Below are positions 1,256 through 63,871 of a DNA stretch of 64,000 nt, in pieces. The first letter of the stretch is position 1. Every line of letters starts with the position of its first letter. The position numbers and the translations under genes are program-made. The stretch is from Ferrovibrio sp. MS7 (lineage in GTDB: Bacteria > Pseudomonadota > Alphaproteobacteria > Ferrovibrionales > Ferrovibrionaceae). Below the pieces are notes generated by a model. It saw only the letters and a program-made list of their open reading frames with translations, was not told the DNA's origin and did not search any database. The DNA is taken from positions 1,392,001 to 1,456,000 of the forward strand of contig NZ_JBBKBA010000001.1 in assembly GCF_038404985.1 (NCBI RefSeq), in the 5' to 3' direction.

Positions 1256-2509
1256 ATGAGCAACAGCAAGATCAAGACTGGCATCAGCCGCCGCCGCGTC
1301 CTCTCTGCCACGGCAGGCGGTGCGGCGCTCGCCGCTTTCACCCCCAGCCTGTTCAACATCGCCCGCGCCCAGGCCGGCAGCATCAAGATCGGCTTCCCCA
1401 CCCCGCTCACCGGCGCCTTCGGTGCCGAGGCGCAGGACCAGGTGCGCGCCGCCGAAATCGCCATCAAGGAATTCAACGATGCCGGCGGCTTCCAGGGCCG
1501 CATGGCAGAACTGCTGGTGCGCGACGACAAGCTCAACCCGGGCGAGGCGGCCACCCGCACGCTCGAACTGATCGAGAAGGACAAGGTGAACTACATCGTC
1601 GGCTCGCTCTCGGCCGCCGTGCAGCTCTCGATCAATAATGTCACCAAGGAACGTGGCGTCATCTTCAACTCGATCAGCCAGTCGGATGCGATCAACGAGG
1701 CGAAGGACTGGAGCAAGTTCACCTTCCATGAGGCGTTGAACCCGCATATGACTGCCGGCGCTGTCGGCCGCTATGCCTTCAACAAGTTCGGTAAGAAGGT
1801 GGTCTATCTCACCGCCGATTATGCCTATGGCCATGAAATGGTGCGTGGCTTCGAAACCGTCGGCAAGGCGGTCGGCGCCCAGACGCTGGCCGATATCCGC
1901 CATCCGATCGGCGCTGCCGATTACTCGGCCTTCCTGCCGCGTATCCAGTCGCTGCGCCCGGATATCCTCTGTATCTGCAATTTCGGCCGCGATCAGGTCA
2001 ATGCCGTGAAGCAGGCGACCGAGTTCGGTATCAAGGAGAAGATCAAGATCATCGCTCCGGTGCTGCTCTACACCGCCCGCGTTGCTGGCGGTTCGGAGAG
2101 CTTCGAGGGCGTGGTCGGCGGCACCTCCTATTACTGGCGCCTGGAAGACACCGTGCCGACCGCCAAGGCGTTCAATGACAAGTTCCGTGCGGCCCATGGC
2201 GGCGCGGTGCCGTCCGATTACGGCGCGCTCGGCTATGCCGGCGTGCGCACGGTGCTGACGGCGGTGAAGAATGCCGGCACCACCGATACCGACAAGGTGA
2301 TCGAGGCGATGCGCGCCCTGAAGTATGACTTCTACAAGGGCCCGCAGTATTATCGCGGCTGCGACCATCAGTCGGTGCAGTCGGTTCTGGTCATCGAGTC
2401 CAAGAGCAAGGACATGAAGGACAAGAACGACGTGTTCAACATCGTGTCTATCGAGCAGCCGGCCGAAGCCAATCTGCGTTCCTGCGCCGATCTCGGCCAC
2501 AAGGCTTAA
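1256..2509 (+). CDS. Branched-chain amino acid-type ABC transporter substrate-binding protein (LivK-like)
   Basis: The 417-residue periplasmic binding protein delivers its ligand to the LivHMGF-like transporter encoded just downstream. The N-terminus has a twin-arginine-type signal (SRRRVLS followed by an Ala-rich core, cleavage near residues 35-38 at ARAQA), so export is probably through Tat. The mature start KIGFPTPLTGAFGAEAQDQ is typical of Peripla_BP_6 proteins. A clear AGGAGG-like ribosome site precedes the ATG. Many such proteins next to catabolic genes bind aromatic or heterocyclic acids or amides rather than leucine. Since it follows a molybdenum hydroxylase, the ligand is plausibly the substrate of that pathway; this is inference. 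Confidence 0.92.
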   Translation: MSNSKIKTGISRRRVLSATAGGAALAAFTPSLFNIARAQAGSIKIGFPTPLTGAFGAEAQDQVRAAEIAIKEFNDAGGFQGRMAELLVRDDKLNPGEAATRTLELIEKDKVNYIVGSLSAAVQLSINNVTKERGVIFNSISQSDAINEAKDWSKFTFHEALNPHMTAGAVGRYAFNKFGKKVVYLTADYAYGHEMVRGFETVGKAVGAQTLADIRHPIGAADYSAFLPRIQSLRPDILCICNFGRDQVNAVKQATEFGIKEKIKIIAPVLLYTARVAGGSESFEGVVGGTSYYWRLEDTVPTAKAFNDKFRAAHGGAVPSDYGALGYAGVRTVLTAVKNAGTTDTDKVIEAMRALKYDFYKGPQYYRGCDHQSVQSVLVIESKSKDMKDKNDVFNIVSIEQPAEANLRSCADLGHKA

Positions 2510-53955: not shown

Positions 53956-54417
53956 TCAGCCGCCATTCGCTGCCGCAGGCAGGCGGCGACCCTCGAGATT
54001 GTCATAGACCCGGCGCAGCAATTCCTTGAGCTGGGTTTCCTCGGCTTCCGTAAGCCCGGCCAGCGCGTTACGCTCCAGGGCTTCAGCGGCGGGCAGCAGC
54101 CTTTGCACCATCTCGCGGCCACGCGGCTCGATACGGATGGCGACGGCGCGGGCATCGGTGTTGGCGCGCGTACGGCGCAGCAGGCCGGTGGTTTCCATGC
54201 CGCCGATGATGCGCGAAAGCGTGGAGATTTCGATCGAGGTACGTTCGGCCAGATCCGACAACCGCTGGCCGTCTTGCTCGAACAAGGCGGCAAGCACGCG
54301 CCAATCCTGGATGCCGAGGCCCTCGGCGCGCAGCCGGATGCTGAAATGCGCAACGAGGCGGACGCCGGCGCGGTTGATCAGATAGGGGAGGTAGCTGTCG
54401 AGGGCGAGCGGCGTCAT
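53956..54417 (-). CDS. MarR-family transcriptional regulator
   Basis: This 153-residue winged-helix protein has IQDWRVLAALFEQDGQRLSD, TSIEISTLSRIIGGME (recognition helix) and RGREMVQRLLPAAEALERNA, as in MarR proteins. Its ATG shares a base with the stop of the upstream cheY gene (TGATG), so it is translated with the chemotaxis operon. Its target is unknown; it ends 6 bases from the REP pair. Confidence 0.88.
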   Translation of the reverse strand: MTPLALDSYLPYLINRAGVRLVAHFSIRLRAEGLGIQDWRVLAALFEQDGQRLSDLAERTSIEISTLSRIIGGMETTGLLRRTRANTDARAVAIRIEPRGREMVQRLLPAAEALERNALAGLTEAEETQLKELLRRVYDNLEGRRLPAAANGG

Positions 54418-54806
54418 CAGCCGAGCTTGCCGAGCACCGCTTCGATTTTCTGCTTCATCGTGGCGGCGTTGAACGGCTTCACCATGTAATTGTTCACGCC
54501 GGCCTGAATGGCGGTTTTCACCAGCTCGGTATCGCGCTGGCCGGTGGCCATGATGAAGGGCATGCGCTTGGTCAGCGGATTAGCGCGGATGGTCTTGAGT
54601 AGAGTCAGACCGTCCATCCCGTCCATGTTCCAGTCGGAGATGATCAGGTCGAATTTGTTCGAATTCATGGCCAGGAGCGCCTCGTTGCCGCTCTTGGCCT
54701 CAACGACGTTCTTGATGCCGATTTCCTGCAAGCAATAGCGCGCAATGCCGCGCATGCTCATCTGGTCGTCGACAATCAGAACTCGCAATTGGCTGGCCAC
54801 CGGCAT
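54417..54806 (-). CDS. CheY-like single-domain response regulator
   Basis: This 129-residue receiver domain has acidic pocket Asp13/Asp14 in LIVDDQ, phospho-acceptor Asp58 in IISDWNMDGMDG, Thr88 in MATGQR and Lys110 in MVKPFN. With no output domain it fits CheY: phosphorylated by CheA, it acts on the flagellar motor or as a phosphate sink. The segment SDWNMDGMDGLTLLKTIR resembles motor-binding CheY. It is the penultimate gene of the che operon. Confidence 0.92.
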   Translation of the reverse strand: MPVASQLRVLIVDDQMSMRGIARYCLQEIGIKNVVEAKSGNEALLAMNSNKFDLIISDWNMDGMDGLTLLKTIRANPLTKRMPFIMATGQRDTELVKTAIQAGVNNYMVKPFNAATMKQKIEAVLGKLG

Positions 54807-54955: not shown

Positions 54956-56005
54956 CTAACGCTGCTTGCAGCGGTTCAAAATCTCCGCAGCGATCTGCCC
55001 GATCGGGGCTTCCTGCTGCACTGCGCCCACCAGTTTCGCCGCCTTCGGCATGCCATAGACCAGGCTGGTGGCTTCATCCTGCCCGATGGTCTGGGCCCCG
55101 GCTTCGAGCATTTTCTTCAGGCCGGCGGCACCATCCTTGCCCATGCCGGTCAGGATCACGCCGATGGCATTGTGGCCGGCATGCTCGGCTACCGAAGCGA
55201 ACAAGACGTCCACGGAGGGCCGGTGGCCGGAAACCGGCGGGTCATGGTTAAGCTTGGTGTAGTAGTGCCCGCCCGAGCGATGCAGCGTCAGGTGGAAATC
55301 GCCCGGTGCGATATAGACATGGCCCGGAAAGACCCGCACCCCGTCCTTGGCTTCCGAGACCGAAACAGCGGACAGCGAGTCGAGGCGGGCGGCAAAGCTG
55401 CCAGTGAAACGTGGTGGCATATGCTGGGTGATCAGGATCGGCGGGCTGTCTGGCGGCAGCACCGTAATCACTTCCTTCAGCGCCTCCACGCCGCCGGTGG
55501 AGGAGCCGATGGCGCAGATCATATCTGTCGAGGTGAAGCCGGGGCCGGGCGTGAGGCGTTTCGGTGTGGCGCCTTCAGCCGGCCTGCTGCGCGCCACCAC
55601 ACGGGCGGTGGCGGCCATCTTCACCTTGGCCACCAATTCGCCTTTGATCTCCTCCAGCGCATGCTTGATATCCAGCGTCGGCTTCGGCACGAAGTCGACG
55701 GCACCCATTTCCAGCGCCTGCATGGTGATCGAGGCGCCCTTCTGGGTCAGGGTGGACACCATCACCACCGGCATCGGTCGCAGCCGCATGATCTTCTCAA
55801 GGAAGGAGATGCCGTCCATGTTCGGCATTTCCACATCCAGGGTCAGCACGTCCGGATTCAATTCCTTGATCATGCTGCGCGCCACCAGCGGATCCGGCGC
55901 GGCGCCAACCACTTCGATTTCCGCGTCGCTGCTCAGCGCAGCCGTCAGCAACTGACGGATCAGTGCCGAGTCATCGACAATAAGAACCTTGATCTTCTTC
56001 GCCAT
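54956..56005 (-). CDS. cheB: Chemotaxis protein-glutamate methylesterase CheB
   Basis: This 349-residue protein has a receiver domain 1-125 (Asp11/12, phospho-Asp57 in TLDVEMPNMDG, Lys108 in VPKPT). A C-terminal methylesterase domain has triad Ser169 (AIGSSTGG), His195 (ITQHMPP) and Asp291 (GMGKDGAAG). It removes methyl groups from, and deamidates, chemoreceptors when phosphorylated by CheA, giving adaptation. All key residues are present. It follows cheR by 21 bases. Confidence 0.95.
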   Translation of the reverse strand: MAKKIKVLIVDDSALIRQLLTAALSSDAEIEVVGAAPDPLVARSMIKELNPDVLTLDVEMPNMDGISFLEKIMRLRPMPVVMVSTLTQKGASITMQALEMGAVDFVPKPTLDIKHALEEIKGELVAKVKMAATARVVARSRPAEGATPKRLTPGPGFTSTDMICAIGSSTGGVEALKEVITVLPPDSPPILITQHMPPRFTGSFAARLDSLSAVSVSEAKDGVRVFPGHVYIAPGDFHLTLHRSGGHYYTKLNHDPPVSGHRPSVDVLFASVAEHAGHNAIGVILTGMGKDGAAGLKKMLEAGAQTIGQDEATSLVYGMPKAAKLVGAVQQEAPIGQIAAEILNRCKQR

Positions 56006-56026: not shown

Positions 56027-56872
56027 TTAAGCGATCTTGCGATGGATGTTGCGGCCCAACAGCTTGAACCGCTCGGTGATGCCGAACAGGTTCTCTGAAT
56101 GGCCGATATAGAGGAAGCCGCCTGGCACCAGCAGGTTGGCGTAGCGGTCGAACAGCACCCGCTGGGTGTCCTTGTCGAAATAGATCACCACGTTGCGGCA
56201 GAAGATGACATCGAATGGCCCCTTCATCGGCCAGTGCGACATCAGGTTCAGGTGCTTGAAAGCAATCATCTGGCGCAGTTCCTGGCGCACCCGCACCTTG
56301 CCCGGGCCGTATGGCTCGAAGCATTTGTCGCGGATATCGGCAGGCACGCCCTCGGCGGATTCCGTGCTGTAGACGCCCTCGCTGCCACGCCGCACCATCT
56401 CGGTGTCGATATCGGTGGCGAGAATTTTGGCATCCCACTGGTTCAGGTCCGGCATCGCCTGGCGCAGGGTGATGGCGATGGAATAAGGCTCTTCGCCTGA
56501 CGAACAGCCGGCAGACCAGATGCGCAGGCGGCGGCCCTGGCTGGTGGCGCGGGTGCGTATTTCGCTCAAGGCCTGGCCGGCCAGATGCTCGAAATGGTGG
56601 TTCTCGCGGAAGAACTTGGTCAGGTTGGTCGTCAGCGCATTCAGCGTGGCGCCAAGTTCGTCGATGCCTTCTGGGCTGGCGATGAAGTCGCAATAGGCGC
56701 GGAAGCTCGGGATATGCAGTTTGCGCAGCCGCTTGGCAAGCCGGGCATAGACCATGTTCTGCTTCGACGGACCAAGGTCGATGCCGGTCTTTTCCTTCAG
56801 CAGCTTGGCCAGGAAGGCATAGTCATCGGCTGAGAAGGTGAATTCCCTGTCGTCGGCCACCGCGTTGCTCAT
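56027..56872 (-). CDS. cheR: Chemotaxis protein methyltransferase CheR
   Basis: The protein has 281 residues. The N-terminal helical domain includes YARLAKRLRKLHIPSFRAYC. The SAM-binding domain has IWSAGCSSGEEPYSIAI, ATDIDTEMV and FDVIFCRNVVIYFD. It methylates receptor glutamates as counterpart of CheB. Its position between cheW and cheB is common in alphaproteobacterial che operons. Confidence 0.95.
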   Translation of the reverse strand: MSNAVADDREFTFSADDYAFLAKLLKEKTGIDLGPSKQNMVYARLAKRLRKLHIPSFRAYCDFIASPEGIDELGATLNALTTNLTKFFRENHHFEHLAGQALSEIRTRATSQGRRLRIWSAGCSSGEEPYSIAITLRQAMPDLNQWDAKILATDIDTEMVRRGSEGVYSTESAEGVPADIRDKCFEPYGPGKVRVRQELRQMIAFKHLNLMSHWPMKGPFDVIFCRNVVIYFDKDTQRVLFDRYANLLVPGGFLYIGHSENLFGITERFKLLGRNIHRKIA

Positions 56873-56907: not shown

Positions 56908-57453
56908 TCAGGCCGCCCCGGCATCGGCCGACGGGCCGGCCAGCATAGGCCGCGACGCCATATCTGCCGAGTCCAGCATGCGGCCGGAGAACATGCGGTC
57001 GAGGCCGATCAGGCCGACCATGCGTTCGCCCACGGTGATCAGGCCTTCCATGAAGCCGATACCCGACACCTGCTCCATCTCCGGCATCGGCCGGATTTCG
57101 TCTTCGTTGATGGTGATGATGTCTGATACCGCGTCCACCAGGATGCCGACGATGCGCGAAGCGACGGAAACGATGATCACGACATTGTACTTGGTCGGCT
57201 CGGTGCGTGGCATGCCGAAGCGGGCGCGCAGGTCGAAGATCGGCACGATGGCGCCACGCATGTTGATCACGCCGCGCACCACTTCCGGCGTATTCGGCAG
57301 CGGTGTGGTTTCCGACCAGGCGCGGATCTCGCGTACTGCCATGATGTCGACGCCGTATTCCTCGTTGCCGACGGTGAAGGAGATGAGCTGGATGGTGCGG
57401 CTTGAGCGGTTTGCCGCTTCCGCTGCTGCGCCGGCCTGTGCGTTGCCTGACAT
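56908..57453 (-). CDS. cheW: Chemotaxis coupling protein CheW
   Basis: This 181-residue protein has QLISFTVGNEEYGVDIMAVREI, PNTPEVVRGVINMRGAIVPI and FDLRARFGM (each a family block). It links chemoreceptors to CheA. N- and C-terminal tails are rich in Ala/Gly and Ser and probably disordered. It lies 17 bases downstream of cheA. Confidence 0.95.
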   Translation of the reverse strand: MSGNAQAGAAAEAANRSSRTIQLISFTVGNEEYGVDIMAVREIRAWSETTPLPNTPEVVRGVINMRGAIVPIFDLRARFGMPRTEPTKYNVVIIVSVASRIVGILVDAVSDIITINEDEIRPMPEMEQVSGIGFMEGLITVGERMVGLIGLDRMFSGRMLDSADMASRPMLAGPSADAGAA

Positions 57454-57470: not shown

Positions 57471-59735
57471 TCACGATGCCGCGGCGGTATTGAGCGCCGT
57501 CACATTGCCGTTGCCGTTGTTCGTATTGCCGTTGCGTAGTGCCGGCCGCTGCGTTTCGTGTTCGGCGATATACTTGATGCCGGCCACGTCCAGAATCAGC
57601 GAAACGCGGCCATTGCCCAGGATGGTGGCGGCGCCGACGCCGCGGATCGGATCGAAATTCTCTTCCAGGCTTTTGATAACCACCTGCTGTTGGCCGATGA
57701 TCTCGTCCACCACCAGGCCCATCTTGGAACTGTCTTCCATCTCCACGATGATCACCAGGGCCTTGGTCGGGTCGTCGATGCCACCGGCCACCTTGAAGAT
57801 ACGATGCAGGTAGACCAGCGGCACGTATTCGCCACGGATGCGCAGCAACTGGCTGGCATTGGCTACCACGTTGATCTGGTCGGCTTCCGGCCGCAAACTT
57901 TCTACGATATTGGCTAGCGGCAGGATGTAGCTCTGCTGCCCCACCTTCAGCACCATGCCATCCAGCACGGCCAGCGTCAGCGGCAGTGTCAGGATGAAGC
58001 TGGAGCCCTGGCCGGGGCGCGACTGGATATGCACGCGGCCGCCAAGCGACTGGATATTCTGGCGCACCACGTCCATGCCGACGCCGCGGCCCGAAATATT
58101 CGACACCTGGTCGGCGGTGGAGAAGCCCGGCAGGAAAATCAGGTTGTCGATTTCCTCGTTGCTTAAGACCGCATCCGGCGCCACCAGTTTCTTCTCAATC
58201 GCCTTGCGCATCACCTTGTCGCGGTTGATGCCGCGGCCATCGTCGGAAATCTCGATCACGATGCGGCCGCCGCGCTGGTCGGCGGATACATGGATCACGC
58301 CTTCCGGCGGCTTGCCGACGGCGACGCGGTCATCCGGCGTCTCGATGCCATGGTCGCAGGAATTGCGGATCATGTGCGTCAGTGGATCGCCAAGCTGTTC
58401 GATCACCGTCTTGTCGATTTCGGTGTTCTCGCCGCTCATGTCGAGGCGGATCTTCTTGTTGGTGAGCTGCGCCAGTTCGCGCACCAGACGCGGCAGGCGG
58501 GCGAACACGCTCTTCACCGGCTGGGCACGCATCGCCATCACGCTTTCCTGCAGATCGCGGATGTGATGCGAGAGTTCGGCCAGGCCGTTGGCGAGTTCAG
58601 GATGCTGGTCGGCATGCAGATGCTCGGTCTGCTGCGCGATCATGGCATGGGTGATCACCAGCTCGCCCACCATGTTGACCAGCTTGTCGACACGGTCGAG
58701 ATCGACGCGGATCGAGCGGACTGCCTTGGCGCCTTCGGCACCGCCGGCAGCGCCGGGCTTGGCTTCCGCCTTGGCGGCTTCCGGGTGCGGTTCCTTGTGT
58801 TCCGCTGCAGCAGCAGCGGCCGGGGCTGCCTGCTGCGGCGCGGCGGCTGGCGCAGGCTCGGCTGGCTTCGGCGCGGCCGGGCTGGCGGCTGCCGGGCTGG
58901 CTGCGGGCGCGGCGGGTTTGGCTGCGGCTGCCGGTTGCGGTGCTGCTGCCTCGGCCGGCGGATTGAGGCAGGTGATTTCAAGCTCGCAATCGTCGAGCAC
59001 GAATTCGAACACGTCGCGGATGGCGTCTTCGCCCTTGTCCGTCTCGATATCGAACTCCCACTTGATGTAGGCGCCCTCGGCGCTCATGTGGTCGAGATCG
59101 GGCAGGGCGCTGGTGTCGGCACGGGCCAGGAAGCCGCCGAGATTGCGCAATTCGCGGATCAGGATCAGCGGCTCATTGGCGCGCTGGTAGAGCGCATCGC
59201 GCGGCGCGAACTTCACCAGGTATTTCAGCAGCGGTACCTTGGCCGCTTCCGGTTCCGGCTCGGGTTCGGCGAAAGCGTTGTTGAGGCCGAGCTCGGCATC
59301 CAGCGCCGCCAGTTCGTCACCGGCGGCATGCGGGTCGGCATTCACACCAATGGTGGCGGCCAGCGCGATCAGCGATTTGCGGCCGTCATTCTCATGTTCG
59401 GCGGGCAGTTCGGTGCCCGACTGAGCGGCCTTCACCAGATCCGACAGGATATCGGCGCAGCGCAGCACCAGCAGCACGGAATCCGGCGCCGGTTCCAGCC
59501 GACCGTCGCGCATCAGGTCGAGCACGGTCTCGAAGATATGGGCGAAATTCACCAGGCGCTCGAAGCCGAAGGCTCCTGCGCCGCCCTTGATCGAGTGGAT
59601 GGCGCGGAACACGGCGTTCAGCGTGTTGCTGTCGCCTTCGCCGGCCTGCAGGGCCATGAGATGGCCTTCCAGGTCGCCAAGCAACTCCTCGCATTCCTGG
59701 AAGAAGGTCTGCTTAAACTGCTGCAGTTCATCCAT
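57471..59735 (-). CDS. cheA: Chemotaxis histidine kinase CheA
   Basis: The 754-residue kinase has an HPt domain 1-105 with phospho-His47 in FRAIHSIKGGAGAFGF. A middle domain lies at about 150-260. An Ala/Pro-rich linker runs about 262-335. The dimerisation helices (VDKLVNMVGELVITHAMIA) follow. The ATPase has N box THMIRNSCDHGIE, G1 DDGRGINRD and G2 GRGVGMDVVRQNI. A CheW-like regulatory domain is at the end. All catalytic motifs are intact. It phosphorylates CheY and CheB. The long low-complexity linker is a visible peculiarity. Confidence 0.96.
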   Translation of the reverse strand: MDELQQFKQTFFQECEELLGDLEGHLMALQAGEGDSNTLNAVFRAIHSIKGGAGAFGFERLVNFAHIFETVLDLMRDGRLEPAPDSVLLVLRCADILSDLVKAAQSGTELPAEHENDGRKSLIALAATIGVNADPHAAGDELAALDAELGLNNAFAEPEPEPEAAKVPLLKYLVKFAPRDALYQRANEPLILIRELRNLGGFLARADTSALPDLDHMSAEGAYIKWEFDIETDKGEDAIRDVFEFVLDDCELEITCLNPPAEAAAPQPAAAAKPAAPAASPAAASPAAPKPAEPAPAAAPQQAAPAAAAAAEHKEPHPEAAKAEAKPGAAGGAEGAKAVRSIRVDLDRVDKLVNMVGELVITHAMIAQQTEHLHADQHPELANGLAELSHHIRDLQESVMAMRAQPVKSVFARLPRLVRELAQLTNKKIRLDMSGENTEIDKTVIEQLGDPLTHMIRNSCDHGIETPDDRVAVGKPPEGVIHVSADQRGGRIVIEISDDGRGINRDKVMRKAIEKKLVAPDAVLSNEEIDNLIFLPGFSTADQVSNISGRGVGMDVVRQNIQSLGGRVHIQSRPGQGSSFILTLPLTLAVLDGMVLKVGQQSYILPLANIVESLRPEADQINVVANASQLLRIRGEYVPLVYLHRIFKVAGGIDDPTKALVIIVEMEDSSKMGLVVDEIIGQQQVVIKSLEENFDPIRGVGAATILGNGRVSLILDVAGIKYIAEHETQRPALRNGNTNNGNGNVTALNTAAAS

Positions 59736-59758: not shown

Positions 59759-60124
59759 TCAGGGGCTGACTTTACGGATCACTTCGAGCAGTTTGGCGGG
59801 ATCGAAGGGCTTCACGATCCAGCCGGTGGCACCGGCGGCGCGGCCTTCAGCCTTCTTCGCCTGGCTGCTTTCAGTGGTCAGGATCAGCACTGGCGTCGCC
59901 TTGCATTTCGGCTTCTTGCGCAGTTCCTTGATGAACGTGATGCCGTCCATCACCGGCATGTTGATATCACTGATGATCACGTCCACGTCATGCTGGTCGA
60001 GCAGGTCCAGGCCTTCCTGGCCATTCTCGCCCTGGATGACGGTGTAGCCGCCCTGCTTCAGCGCGAACTGGAGCATCTGCAGCATGGTCTTCGAGTCGTC
60101 GACCGTGAGGACGGTTTTGGTCAT
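59759..60124 (-). CDS. cheY: CheY-like response regulator
   Basis: This 121-residue receiver domain has Asp9/10 in LTVDDSKT, phospho-Asp53 in IISDINMPVMDG, Thr83/84 in LILTTESS and Lys105 in IVKPFDP. The start is the ATG overlapping the STAS gene stop as ATGA, so both are translated together. It lies directly upstream of cheA and is the best candidate for the motor-acting CheY of this cluster. Confidence 0.93.
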   Translation of the reverse strand: MTKTVLTVDDSKTMLQMLQFALKQGGYTVIQGENGQEGLDLLDQHDVDVIISDINMPVMDGITFIKELRKKPKCKATPVLILTTESSQAKKAEGRAAGATGWIVKPFDPAKLLEVIRKVSP

Positions 60125-60435
60125 GTTTGTACCGGCCATTTCATGAGAAACGAAAACAGCCCCAGATCGTCAAAGGCCGAGACGAAAGCATCACTCGGCG
60201 ACTTGATGACGAAGGCGGCCTGATTCTGCTCGAGTTGCTGGAGCGCCGCGATCAATACCTGCACGCAGGGCGTCGAGAGACGGTCAACGGCAGAGGCATC
60301 GACTACCAGCTTGCCGCCAGCGCTGATCGCTTCCTGCATTGTCTGCAACAACGGTTCGGCTGCCCGCAAATCCATCGTCGCCGCCAGCTTGAGCTGGACC
60401 GCGTCGTCGGCTTTGACGATGCTGAACGGCTCCAT
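60121..60435 (-). CDS. STAS-domain protein of the chemotaxis operon
   Basis: This 104-residue protein has a STAS (anti-sigma-antagonist) fold pattern: VQLKLAATMDLRAAEPL, GKLVVDASAVDRLSTPCVQVL. Ser54 falls where SpoIIAA-type proteins carry the phosphorylated Ser, although the usual DSSG is LSTP. Such small STAS proteins begin che operons in several alphaproteobacteria; their role is not settled. It is coupled to cheY through ATGA. The 204 bases upstream (60436-60639) probably hold the promoter, but I see no convincing consensus. Confidence 0.82.
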   Translation of the reverse strand: MEPFSIVKADDAVQLKLAATMDLRAAEPLLQTMQEAISAGGKLVVDASAVDRLSTPCVQVLIAALQQLEQNQAAFVIKSPSDAFVSAFDDLGLFSFLMKWPVQT

Positions 60436-60639: not shown

Positions 60640-61077
60640 CTATTGCCGCCGGGACATATCAAAAGTGGCGGCGTGACGCGCCAAGGTTGCCAGTTTCAGG
60701 CCGGCATAGCGCTGATGCAGTTCGGCACGGGTGCCGCCAGCAAGCTGGAACATCAGCATGATCGAGCTTTCGAGGTCGTCGGCGCAGCGCACCAGGCTGT
60801 CGAGATCGCCATCGGCCATTTCGGTTTGGCCCAGGCCGCGCAGGTAATCGACGATCCACAGGGAATGCACCGCAATCTGCGACAGCGTCTGGCCGTGGAA
60901 TTCGGTCTCGGTGTTGAAGTGGTCGGCGAGGCGGGGCGGCGGCGCATTGCCGCGGCTTTCGTGGGATTTCTCGTTGTTCTGGCCGGAAGAAAGCTCCTCC
61001 GCCTCCACGTCGATCACCGTATCGGCGCCGAAGGCGAATCCGTCATCATCCTGCTGCGACCAGCGCGCGCTATCCAA
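60640..61077 (-). CDS. Uncharacterised protein of the chemotaxis cluster
   Basis: The 145-residue protein starts with TTG (AGGA about 8 bases upstream); no ATG or GTG lies between it and the in-frame stop upstream. Residues 1-55 are acidic and probably disordered. Residues 60-145 look helical (LSQIAVHSLWIVDYLRGLGQ and SLVRCADDLESSIMLMFQLA). I do not recognise a family. Its place between the HPt-like gene and the STAS gene, on the same strand, suggests an accessory chemotaxis role. Confidence 0.6.
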   Translation of the reverse strand: MDSARWSQQDDDGFAFGADTVIDVEAEELSSGQNNEKSHESRGNAPPPRLADHFNTETEFHGQTLSQIAVHSLWIVDYLRGLGQTEMADGDLDSLVRCADDLESSIMLMFQLAGGTRAELHQRYAGLKLATLARHAATFDMSRRQ

Positions 61078-61101: not shown

Positions 61102-61140
61102 GATTCGGCTAAGCCGAATCGGAACGAACCCCGATTCGTT
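61102..61140. promoter_or_regulatory. Nested palindromes before the uncharacterised che gene
   Basis: GATTCGGCT-A-AGCCGAATC (61102-61120) is a perfect 9-base palindrome with one central base. It overlaps CGAATCGG (61115-61122) pairing with CCGATTCG (61131-61138). Only one of the two hairpins can form at a time, as in an attenuator; a dimeric operator is the alternative. It lies 25 bases upstream of the TTG start. Confidence 0.5.
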
Positions 61141-61237
61141 CTGACCTTACTGGCACCGAGTCGCAGGGTCAAGCTCGAACCGCTGCATGCAGTGGTGCGG
61201 CAGGTTTCCAGCTACTAGGTTTTGCGTTTTGCGGAAA

Positions 61238-61747
61238 TCAGCCGCGGCCGCCGATGCGCGCGCCGGTCTTGAGCACCACGGTTTCGAGGCCGCGCACCAG
61301 TTCACGGCCGATGGCGCCGCCATCGCCGGCGATCTTCTGGCTCAGCACCACATAGAGCGCGTCGATATGCGGCTGCACCACGGCAGCGCTCACCGAGGTC
61401 TCGGGACTGTTGGCGCAATGCTCAAGGTAATTGCTGAGGAAATGCGTGATTTCGGTGACCAGCGGGAAGCCGAAGCTGCCGCCTAGGCCCTTCATATCCC
61501 AGCAGATGCGCAGCATGCTCTGCACGCCGGCGGGATCGTCCAGATTGGTGTTGCGCAATTCATCGAACGCTTCACGCAGGCGGCCAAGGTCCTTGTCCGC
61601 CCATTGCTGGTACATCTTCTGGCCCAGCACCTGGATCGCGTTCTCGGCTTCCTTGATGGTCTGCTTGTCGAAGCCGCCATTCCCCACCTTCATTTTCAGA
61701 AAGTTGGGCGGATCGATGAACTCGCCTTTCTTGGTCTGGTCCGGCAT
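61238..61747 (-). CDS. HPt-like protein without the phospho-histidine
   Basis: This 169-residue protein is mostly helical. The segment RICWDMKGLGGSFGFPLVTE lines up with the HPt motif of the local CheA (FRAIHSIKGGAGAFGFERLV), but Asp84 stands in place of the phospho-His. The rest (NAIQVLGQKMYQQWADKDLG, NYLEHCANSPE) fits a four-helix HPt bundle. It probably cannot relay phosphate through His; it may bind receiver domains or act as a scaffold. It is on the che strand, between the CheZ-like gene and the unknown gene at 60640. Confidence 0.65.
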   Translation of the reverse strand: MPDQTKKGEFIDPPNFLKMKVGNGGFDKQTIKEAENAIQVLGQKMYQQWADKDLGRLREAFDELRNTNLDDPAGVQSMLRICWDMKGLGGSFGFPLVTEITHFLSNYLEHCANSPETSVSAAVVQPHIDALYVVLSQKIAGDGGAIGRELVRGLETVVLKTGARIGGRG

Positions 61748-61868: not shown

Positions 61869-62393
61869 CTAGAACAACTCCACATCGTCGCCGGCAACGG
61901 TTTCCGGTTTTGCCGTCGGCTTGCCCTGTTCGGTGCCGGGACCAAGCAGATAGTGATGGAAATGGGCGCGCACCATTTCCAGATTCTGCCCTGCCAGCAG
62001 GCCTTCGCCCCAGCCGGTGGCACGTTCGGTCAGGTTGGGTTCCCAGTCGCGGCCGAAGCGCTCGCGGATCAGGTCTTCCACATAGCGCAGCGCGTTCACC
62101 ACATGCTGCTGGCGCTGGTTGCGCAGATCATCGCCCTGCATCAGTTCTACGATCGCGGCCATCGCCGGTGACTGCGGCAATTGCTTGCCGATTTCCATGA
62201 GCTGCGCACTGAAGGCCTGGGCGGACTTCGATTGTGCGTTGCGCAGGTCTTCGATTTCTTCCTTGATTGCCAGCATCACCAGGGCGATGAAGTCCAGCAG
62301 TTCGCGTTCGGCGGCGGTTGGCTGCTCTCGCACCGTCGTCTTGCCGCCCTGTGCTTTGCTCGCTTGCCGTGCCACGCCGGATTTGCGCGTCAC
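61869..62393 (-). CDS. CheZ-like phosphatase candidate
   Basis: This 174-residue helical protein has a long coiled stretch (ELLDFIALVMLAIKEEIEDL). Then DDLRNQRQQHVVNALRYVED contains Asp89-x-x-x-Gln93, the same spacing as the Asp143/Gln147 pair by which CheZ dephosphorylates CheY. The C-terminus ends GDDVELF, like the acidic-hydrophobic CheY-binding tail of CheZ. Both features together, in a che cluster, make a distant CheZ plausible. Overall similarity is low by eye, so the call is tentative. Confidence 0.5.
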   Translation of the reverse strand: MTRKSGVARQASKAQGGKTTVREQPTAAERELLDFIALVMLAIKEEIEDLRNAQSKSAQAFSAQLMEIGKQLPQSPAMAAIVELMQGDDLRNQRQQHVVNALRYVEDLIRERFGRDWEPNLTERATGWGEGLLAGQNLEMVRAHFHHYLLGPGTEQGKPTAKPETVAGDDVELF

Positions 62394-62512: not shown

Positions 62513-62650
62513 CGATTGCACCGCAGGCGCCCCCGTTCCATTATGCCGCCAGGGGGCAAAGGCGGCTGTCGGCTGCCTGTAGTTGAGTGCAGTACAACCG
62601 TGCTGGCATAACGGCCGGCGCGCTTGCGGTCTGGAGGATGGCGGCCGCCA

Positions 62651-63871
62651 ATGGATCCGCTCGATATCAAGGAAATGCTGCACCACCATCAGCTTTGGCT
62701 GAAGGGGTTGCCCACAGGCAAGGCCGCCGATTTCAGCGGCAAGGACCTGACTGGCGCAGACCTTTCCAAGGCTGATCTGCGGCGTGCGGTTTTCCGTGCC
62801 GCGATCCTGCGCAATTGCCAACTCCAGGGCGCCAATCTGGCGCAGTGCAGCTTCTTCAAGGCTGATCTTTCCGGGGCTGATCTTTCCGCGGCGGACCTGA
62901 CCCGCGCCGACATGCGCGGCGCCGTGCTGGAAAGCACCAATTTCGCCAATGCGGTGATGGCCGGGGTCAATTTCCGCCGTGGCCTGGAAATCGGCGAGGC
63001 GGTGCCCGGCGCCGGTACCGGCGAGGGCATTGCTGTGCTGCGCCAGAATATCACCGGCAGCAATTTCGCCGGCGCGAATCTGGCCGGGGTCGATGCTCTG
63101 GGTGCGGACTTTACCGGCAGCAATCTGGCTGGTGCCAACCTGGAGAATTCGGCTCTGACCGATTGCCAACTCGCCCAGGTCGACCTTTCCGGCGCCAATC
63201 TCGGTGGTGCCACCCTGGTCGGCGCCAATCTGATGGGGGCGGAGCTGTCCGGCGCCAAGCTTGCAGGCGCCACTTTGGCCGGTGCCAACCTGACGGATGC
63301 GCATCTGCATGGTGTCGATCTCAATGGTGTTGAGGTTTATGGCGCGAATATCGCCATGGCCAACCTGGCTGCCGAAGCCTTGCCGCCGCCTAAACCGCTG
63401 ACGCCGGAAGAGATTACCACGCTGCTAGAGGAGCATCGCAGCTGGGTGCAGACCGGCCGCGGCCAGCCTGCAAACCTGCGTGGTGCCGATCTTTCCGGGT
63501 TCGACTTGCGCGGGCAAGACCTGTCCGGCATCCGTCTGCGTGGCGCCAAGCTGCGCGAGGCTCGCATGGAGCGCACGGTGCTGCGCTTCGCCGATCTCTC
63601 TGGCATCGATGCGCGCGATGCCGAGGCCAAGGGGGCGGTGTTTCTCGGTGCCACACTCACTGGTGCCGACTTCCGCTTTGCGGATATCGCGGAGGCGGTG
63701 TTCGGCAGTGCCGAAATCCTTACCGCCCAGGGTGAGCGTACCGGTCGGCGCATGCGCTGCGATCTCACCGGGGCCAATCTGGGTGGTGCGCGGGTTGATG
63801 CGGTGCAATGGAACGATGCCGTGATCGAACAGGTCACCGGCCTTGAACCCAGCATGGTTGCCGGTCCATGA
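62651..63871 (+). CDS. Pentapeptide-repeat protein with two repeat domains
   Basis: This 406-residue protein is built mostly of A(D/N)LxG-type pentapeptides: residues about 28-235 and 283-400, forming right-handed quadrilateral beta-helices. Each domain is preceded by a related short module (MLHHHQLWLKG and LLEEHRSWVQTG), so the gene contains an internal duplication. A Pro-rich hinge (ALPPPKPLTPEE) separates them. No signal peptide or membrane segment is seen. The ATG at 62651 starts the first module. It lies next to the che genes and directly before a probable cheD; the function is unknown. Confidence 0.85.
   Translation: MDPLDIKEMLHHHQLWLKGLPTGKAADFSGKDLTGADLSKADLRRAVFRAAILRNCQLQGANLAQCSFFKADLSGADLSAADLTRADMRGAVLESTNFANAVMAGVNFRRGLEIGEAVPGAGTGEGIAVLRQNITGSNFAGANLAGVDALGADFTGSNLAGANLENSALTDCQLAQVDLSGANLGGATLVGANLMGAELSGAKLAGATLAGANLTDAHLHGVDLNGVEVYGANIAMANLAAEALPPPKPLTPEEITTLLEEHRSWVQTGRGQPANLRGADLSGFDLRGQDLSGIRLRGAKLREARMERTVLRFADLSGIDARDAEAKGAVFLGATLTGADFRFADIAEAVFGSAEILTAQGERTGRRMRCDLTGANLGGARVDAVQWNDAVIEQVTGLEPSMVAGP

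Follow-up and report, generated by a model that had tools for sequence, protein, structure and literature searches.

What might a protein of HPt type do in a chemotaxis cluster once it no longer has the histidine that carries the phosphate? The question is raised by an ORF at positions 61238..61747, minus strand, of a 64,000-nucleotide stretch of the genome of Ferrovibrio sp. MS7 (the window, by which we mean the whole stretch of DNA that was analysed). This CDS begins with ATG and encodes 169 amino acids, predicted to form a CheA-P1-like bundle. As set out below, it encodes a real, conserved HPt-like protein without a phospho-His, which we will call the pseudo-HPt.

Structure prediction speaks for an HPt fold. 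The AlphaFold2 (AF2) model possesses five long helices (residues 28-66, 72-91, 95-113, 121-136, and 144-159) with a mean pLDDT of 82.3. Its best structural match is the P1 domain of R. sphaeroides CheA3 (3kyj, crystallised with CheY6; Z 14.1, 2.4 A, 121 residues aligned), followed by Salmonella CheA P1 (Z 13.5), though one should keep in mind that Z scores of about 13-14 are also possible between unrelated helical bundles. Foldseek gave 1i5n as the best match of the model (E 4.7e-3, probability 1.00), and nothing reached E 0.001. At the level of sequence, the Pfam Hpt family (PF01627) reaches 17.6 bits on the pseudo-HPt, under its gathering cut-off of 24.6, and a profile built from 62 relatives picks up CheA P1 (1i5n) at E 1.9e-7. 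The top match of that profile, above 1i5n, is the designed repeat protein BRIC1 (6ff6, E 1.9e-13), the repeats of which carry a CheA-like His motif aligned in the same register as 1i5n. Across all 62 rows of our alignment A2, Pfam reports Hpt in 56 at E 0.01 and no other family in more than one row. Because the sequence and fold evidence agree, the predictions give good support to an HPt-type helical bundle despite the caveat on Z, and the fold that a sequence-only reading of this ORF had proposed is the one returned. Matches to GM-CSF and HIV protease also appeared in the database searches and were taken as chance.

The same reading had matched the protein without gaps to the HPt motif of CheA and had placed Asp84 at the phospho-His position. 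The gapless match is borne out by alignment with the window's own CheA, in which ICWDMKGLGGSFGF of the pseudo-HPt lies over AIHSIKGGAGAFGF (the shorter core pairs RICWDMKGLGGSFGF with RAIHSIKGGAGAFGF) and 10 of 39 residues are identical to the CheA P1. The placement of Asp84 was off by one. In this alignment, in that with the His-bearing relative L017 (the pseudo-HPt motif over VCHDMKGQGGTFGY; CWDMKGLGG versus CHDMKGQGG), and in the profile alignment with 1i5n, it is Trp83 (codon TGG, 61499..61501, minus strand) that stands at the phospho-His position. Asp84 (codon GAT, 61496..61498, minus strand) is the next residue, paired with Ser in the window's CheA and with Asp in L017.

That next residue is always D, E, or N in the 55 distinct His-bearing members of the family (33, 16, and 6, respectively). 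Since Asp84 is thus the ordinary residue following the His, the suggestion that an Asp here mimics the phosphorylated state finds no support, and we rejected it on the register given by the three alignments. What survives of the original proposal is an HPt-like bundle without phospho-His; what does not is an Asp in its place. Of the HPt active-site residues, Lys86 at +3 and Gly87 at +4 (61484..61492, minus strand, together with Leu88 at +5) are present in 9/9 orthologues, where an HPt should have Lys or Arg and Gly. It is the phosphorylatable His of that helix that is missing, Trp83 taking its place in all nine. The +5 residue is Gln in 51 of the 55 His-bearing members and Leu88 in 9/9 orthologues. 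The active-face residues retained are Lys86, Gly87, and FG[FY]PL.

Is the loss of the His an accident of one sequence? Trp83 is fixed in all nine Ferrovibrio genomes (that of the window and eight relatives), with the codon TGG throughout. His (CAY) and Trp (TGG) differ at all three bases, so a single miscall does not explain it. The motif CWDMKGLGG is invariant across the nine orthologues, and dN/dS (Nei-Gojobori) lies between 0.07 and 0.24 in eight orthologue comparisons; by this measure the pseudo-HPt is under purifying selection. Seven Ferrovibrio-type loci (L138-L144) are 74-85% identical to the pseudo-HPt and add no independent counts to the nine genomes. The argument as a whole draws on a single genus. 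Whether homologues carry a His at this place, a point on which the earlier reading had hung its proposal, has two answers: the wider family does (55 of 119 distinct members), and the direct orthologues have Trp in every case. With His in the wider family and Trp in all nine orthologues, the loss of the phospho-His looks derived and is fixed in the genus.

These observations bear directly on the view that the pseudo-HPt is a functionless relic that is still drifting. One could point to the lost catalytic residue, to the fact that seven of the nine family members in this genome lack the His, and to the match in genome G001, which is listed with one internal TGA. The aligned coding region is, however, free of stops in all nine orthologues, G001 (L015) included, the genes around it keep their order in 9/9 genomes, and the active-face residues do not vary. 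The selection result largely refutes the relic, and we regard it as extremely improbable.

The pseudo-HPt gene is embedded in a che cluster, all on the minus strand, that begins with a CheZ/CheT-like candidate (61869..62393), followed by the pseudo-HPt and by orfX (60640..61077; 145 amino acids), which is the next gene downstream. Then come a STAS-domain protein (60121..60435), the CheY1 receiver (59759..60139), CheA (57471..59735), CheW (56908..57453), CheR (56027..56872), CheB with receiver and methylesterase (54956..56005), and the CheY2 receiver (54417..54806). The same cluster order around the pseudo-HPt is seen in all nine genomes of the genus. The active-site residues are present in both CheY receivers, and CheA possesses its P1 His; Pfam, at E 1, lists no P2 domain for it. 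The receiver nearest to the pseudo-HPt is CheY1, three genes downstream, and none adjoins it directly. The gaps between the pseudo-HPt and the neighbouring CDSs are 121 and 160 bases long, and a search for a sigma-70-like promoter found none.

The assignments of the less familiar neighbours should be read with caution. The CheZ/CheT-like candidate carries a DxxxQ motif (DDLxxQRQQH) and a C-terminal VELF in 9/9 rows, has no Pfam CheZ match, and yields a low-confidence AF2 model (pLDDT 53). The STAS protein is CheS-like as judged by domain and position only, and orfX, which has a conserved core reading AVxSLxIxDYxRxLGxTEMADGDxDS, has no Pfam or NCBIfam match.

Both orfX and the CheZ-like gene are genus-specific in this sample, being present in 9/9 Ferrovibrio genomes and in 0/52 of the others (61 genomes searched, E 1e-3). 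This co-occurrence, with the adjacency of the three genes in all nine genomes of the genus, invites the reading that the pseudo-HPt partners the CheZ-like protein or orfX, as an adaptor or in a dimer, within a three-gene complex, its HPt fold being a mere helical scaffold. A scaffold would have no obvious need of an invariant CWDMKGLGG on the active face, and we hold this reading to be unlikely. Among 31 genomes searched, G017 is the sole one outside the genus with a match to the STAS protein; there, STAS, CheY, and CheA stand in a row, and the 1.5 kb read upstream of them contains neither orfX nor the CheZ-like gene.

Two further features of the region may be recorded here. The gap between the pseudo-HPt and orfX contains (61102-61144) a perfect 9-nt inverted repeat, GATTCGGCT/AGCCGAATC, together with overlapping ones; it is not among the terminator-like sites listed. 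Close to two kinds of His-less HPt paralogue, the opposite strand carries pentapeptide-repeat genes: the che copy and the L002 type (window 62624-63871, plus strand; L002, L060, L062, L070, L080, L082, L094, and L103).

The relatives of the pseudo-HPt show how far its condition is shared. A family match was found in 37 of the 61 genomes searched, its own included. The window's genome has nine members at E values up to 7.4e-4, of which two keep the His (L003 and L004) and seven have W, F, F, L, L, V, or V instead; in one of the Val members, L110, a His stands one place further on, so that its register is less sure. The 119 distinct members comprise 55 with His, nine with Trp (all of them the che orthologue), and 55 with another residue. 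This total is what remains of 147 aligned rows after removal of duplicate ORFs, CheA rows, and one row outside the family (L047, 14421-14921), and the 55 His-bearing members were found without any pattern on the active site. Also left out of the family reading were G027 C37 and one of two neighbouring matches each in G060:C148 and G006:C21. Ten of the fetched His-less rows come from outside the genus (L023, L025, L067, L112, L115 twice, L121, L126, L132, and L133). Such domains are rare in bacteria, the His-less ones making up 90 of 10,312 sampled (0.9%) in the part of PMC12632262 available.

A scan with the pattern [WH]DM[KR]G[LQ]GG, by which only W or H can be found, gave 143 loci, and the best 80 were used. 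Owing to that pattern, neither the scan nor alignment A2 entered the residue counts for the His position, +1, and +5; the scan serves as context. Among these best 80 of 143, 73 loci are not of Ferrovibrio type, and each has a His-bearing member; within the 4-18 kb seen of each of the 73, no homologue of CheA, CheW, CheR, or CheB above 80 bits was found. A CheY-like gene lies within 400 bases in 61 of the 80 His-bearing rows of the same scan. When the sample is the family irrespective of pattern, a CheY-like (rarely CheB-like) gene within 400 bases accompanies 36/55 His-bearing rows and 30/65 others.

A quick tree sets the Trp clade apart from a large F/L/V/Y clade and calls for ten or more switches between His and another residue. 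Separate losses of the His in these two clades would fit that tree, but the AU test does not reject a single Trp plus F/L/V/Y clade (p 0.77), the constrained tree being better by 13.8 lnL, so that the two clades may go back to one loss or to several.

Across the loci examined, 103 HPt genes have a receiver gene upstream on the same strand, and here the state of one partner can be compared with that of the other. Two paralogous pairs in the window's genome are instructive, L005 (receiver at 932-1480, then an HPt with Leu at 1480-1989, plus strand) and L007 (receiver at 2019-2630, then an HPt with Phe at 1486-2034, minus strand). In both, the His-less HPt directly follows a receiver that passes the Pfam receiver cut-off and in which the phospho-Asp is replaced by Glu (ITEWDL, ITEWNL) and the second acidic Asp by Pro or Asn. 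Thr and Lys are kept, and the C-terminal stretch reads YFGPDRRR. To judge by these residues, they are apparently dead relay pairs that have stayed together.

Over all 103 pairs, 69 combine His with Asp, nine His with Asn, 18 non-His with Glu, and seven non-His with Asp, and the two states are associated (Fisher p 2e-8), though in rows that are not independent. Repeated, independent co-loss of the HPt His and the receiver Asp was considered and rejected, for it finds no independent repeat on the tree. When the 50 receiver-bearing rows are placed on the tree, one independent pair falls on starred branches and five on all branches; D57 changes only twice, and none of 200 random pairings lost D57 together with the His. 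On these figures, the combination of His-less HPt and Glu receiver is probably one event kept in the descendants. The persistence of such pairs suggests that an HPt of this family may stay next to its receiver even after both partners have lost their chemistry.

Other states of the receiver were noted along the way. The nine pairs of a His-bearing HPt behind an Asn receiver are the reverse case and mostly of NWQM type (L027, L031, L034, L074, L083, L102, L161, L210, and L212). At L068, L069, L075, L076, and L087, where the HPts are His-bearing, there is a receiver-like gene on the opposite strand, with Arg for the phospho-Asp and Leu for the Lys.

What, then, might the window's copy do? As the phospho-His is absent, the pseudo-HPt cannot carry out canonical His-Asp transfer. 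Could the phosphate sit on another residue, such as His102, His110, His127, or Asp84? Among the eight W-clade rows, His102 and His127 are each found in all and His110 in seven, a degree of conservation that one might take for a phosphosite. His127, however, is also present in 43/54 relatives with a normal phospho-His and is a family trait, and Asp84 is the normal H+1 residue. We know of no HPt that uses another phosphosite, and consider this very unlikely.

An HPt-like bundle without phospho-His inside a che cluster could possibly block or titrate receivers, if the predicted fold is right. We favour a reading of this kind, to which we give a probability of roughly 0.45, a little under even: a stand-alone HPt that performs no transfer would dock a receiver of its cluster and tune either its phosphorylation or, with the CheZ-like neighbour, the turnover of CheY-P. 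The pseudo-HPt would bind CheY1, CheY2, or CheB through the retained face (Lys86, Gly87, and FG[FY]PL), with Trp83 and Leu88 occupying the places of His and Gln at the receiver interface. Such docking might limit how much receiver is phosphorylated by CheA, for example by competition with CheA P1 for CheY or CheB. Alternatively, the pseudo-HPt might set the rate at which CheY-P is removed with the CheZ-like product, for example by presenting CheY-P to it.

Binding without transfer is feasible if one goes by the yeast HPt Ypd1, where altering the Gly at H+4 impairs transfer much more severely than binding; the surface by which HPts contact receivers is a hydrophobic patch, and the His sits at its margin (both from the part of PMC6341664 available). 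The frequent linkage of the family to receivers, the co-occurrence with the CheZ-like gene and orfX, and a top structural match that was crystallised with a CheY also speak for receiver binding. Against it counts that no receiver gene adjoins the pseudo-HPt. With a bulky Trp and the +5 Gln lost, the face could as well bind another partner, e.g., CheA P4 or the CheZ-like protein.

The first of these partners leads to a rival in which the pseudo-HPt is a decoy for CheA, a pseudo-P1 that lowers autophosphorylation by competing with CheA's own P1 for P4 (the kinase domain) or for contacts in the array. The closest solved folds among natural proteins are indeed CheA P1 domains, and at His102, which matches a His of CheA P1, the Trp clade is the more P1-like (His in 8/8 W-clade rows against 1/54 His-bearing rows of A2). 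Against this, the pseudo-HPt resembles the P1 of the window's CheA weakly in sequence (the 10/39 above), and the closer kin are receiver-linked HPts; we think the decoy improbable. As to the site itself, the His102 codon is at 61442-61444, the His-bearing rows of A2 mostly have N or D there, and the CheA P1 His with which it aligns lies ten residues past the phenylalanine of FGF.

Our preferred reading of a receiver-docking pseudo-HPt may be extended to the genus. Much of this relay family would have turned phosphate-free, with HPts (W/F/L/V for His), some of them still encoded with Glu receivers that lack the second acidic residue, serving as constitutive protein-protein modules, and the window's copy would be the one tied to chemotaxis, a dedicated non-catalytic binder of CheY or CheB (or CheA) that acts with the genus-specific CheZ-like protein. 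We put this forward tentatively and with the odds against it.

Comparison with known systems places the protein between several groups. With CheA P1 (1i5n, 3kyj) it shares the helical bundle, the gapless active-helix motif, Lys at +3, and Gly at +4; it differs in being stand-alone, without a kinase core, and in having Trp for His. With the receiver-linked alphaproteobacterial HPt family (HD[IM]KGQGGTFGYPL), it shares the N-terminal PPxxLKxKV, the active helix, and the C-terminal GDGG, and His-bearing rows of that family are 28-41% identical to it. That family keeps the His and often adjoins a receiver gene, whereas the pseudo-HPt does neither.

In S. meliloti, CheT is described as carrying a DXXXQ motif, with a predicted structure like that of CheZ, and CheS as a CheA-binding protein of STAS type (PMC12654446, in the sections available). 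There, a STAS protein and a DxxxQ phosphatase occur in an alphaproteobacterial che cluster and resemble the window's neighbours by description, and the window's cluster has, on these descriptions, the outline of a CheS/CheT-like set plus a pseudo-HPt. The available portion of that account mentions no His-less HPt.

His-less HPts are found in other chemosensory systems as well, in P. aeruginosa ChpA and R. sphaeroides CheA3 (PMC10542144, as far as its available text goes). There they are domains of a CheA, whereas the pseudo-HPt is a separate protein, and that text describes the role of His-less HPts in CheA proteins as yet to be determined. Among the open-access titles listed, papers on pseudo-HPts are nearly all on plants, and those for the combination of Ferrovibrio and chemotaxis do not concern Ferrovibrio che genes. 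The interest of the present case lies in a pseudo-HPt that is stand-alone, fixed for Trp, and che-linked, in a genome where most of the HPt family lacks the His. The role of His-less HPts becomes testable with a small, conserved, stand-alone protein in an otherwise ordinary che cluster, and the same genome offers a comparison series in L003 (His, normal receiver) versus L005 and L007 (no His, receivers without the Asp).

Pseudo-HPts are already known as a kind, and plant AHP6 is the tested precedent. AHP6 is likewise a stand-alone HPt with its phospho-His replaced, and this HPt with a mutated His inhibits cytokinin signalling (PMC3572949, in the part available), from which it follows that a His-less HPt can damp a relay. 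The features by which AHP6 is recognised recur in the pseudo-HPt: the HPt fold is kept (here by prediction), the phospho-His is replaced, and this state is evolutionarily stable. AHP6 differs in being eukaryotic, in acting in the cytokinin pathway, and in being a tested inhibitor (same part of PMC3572949), and the two are compared here as alike, without any claim of kinship.
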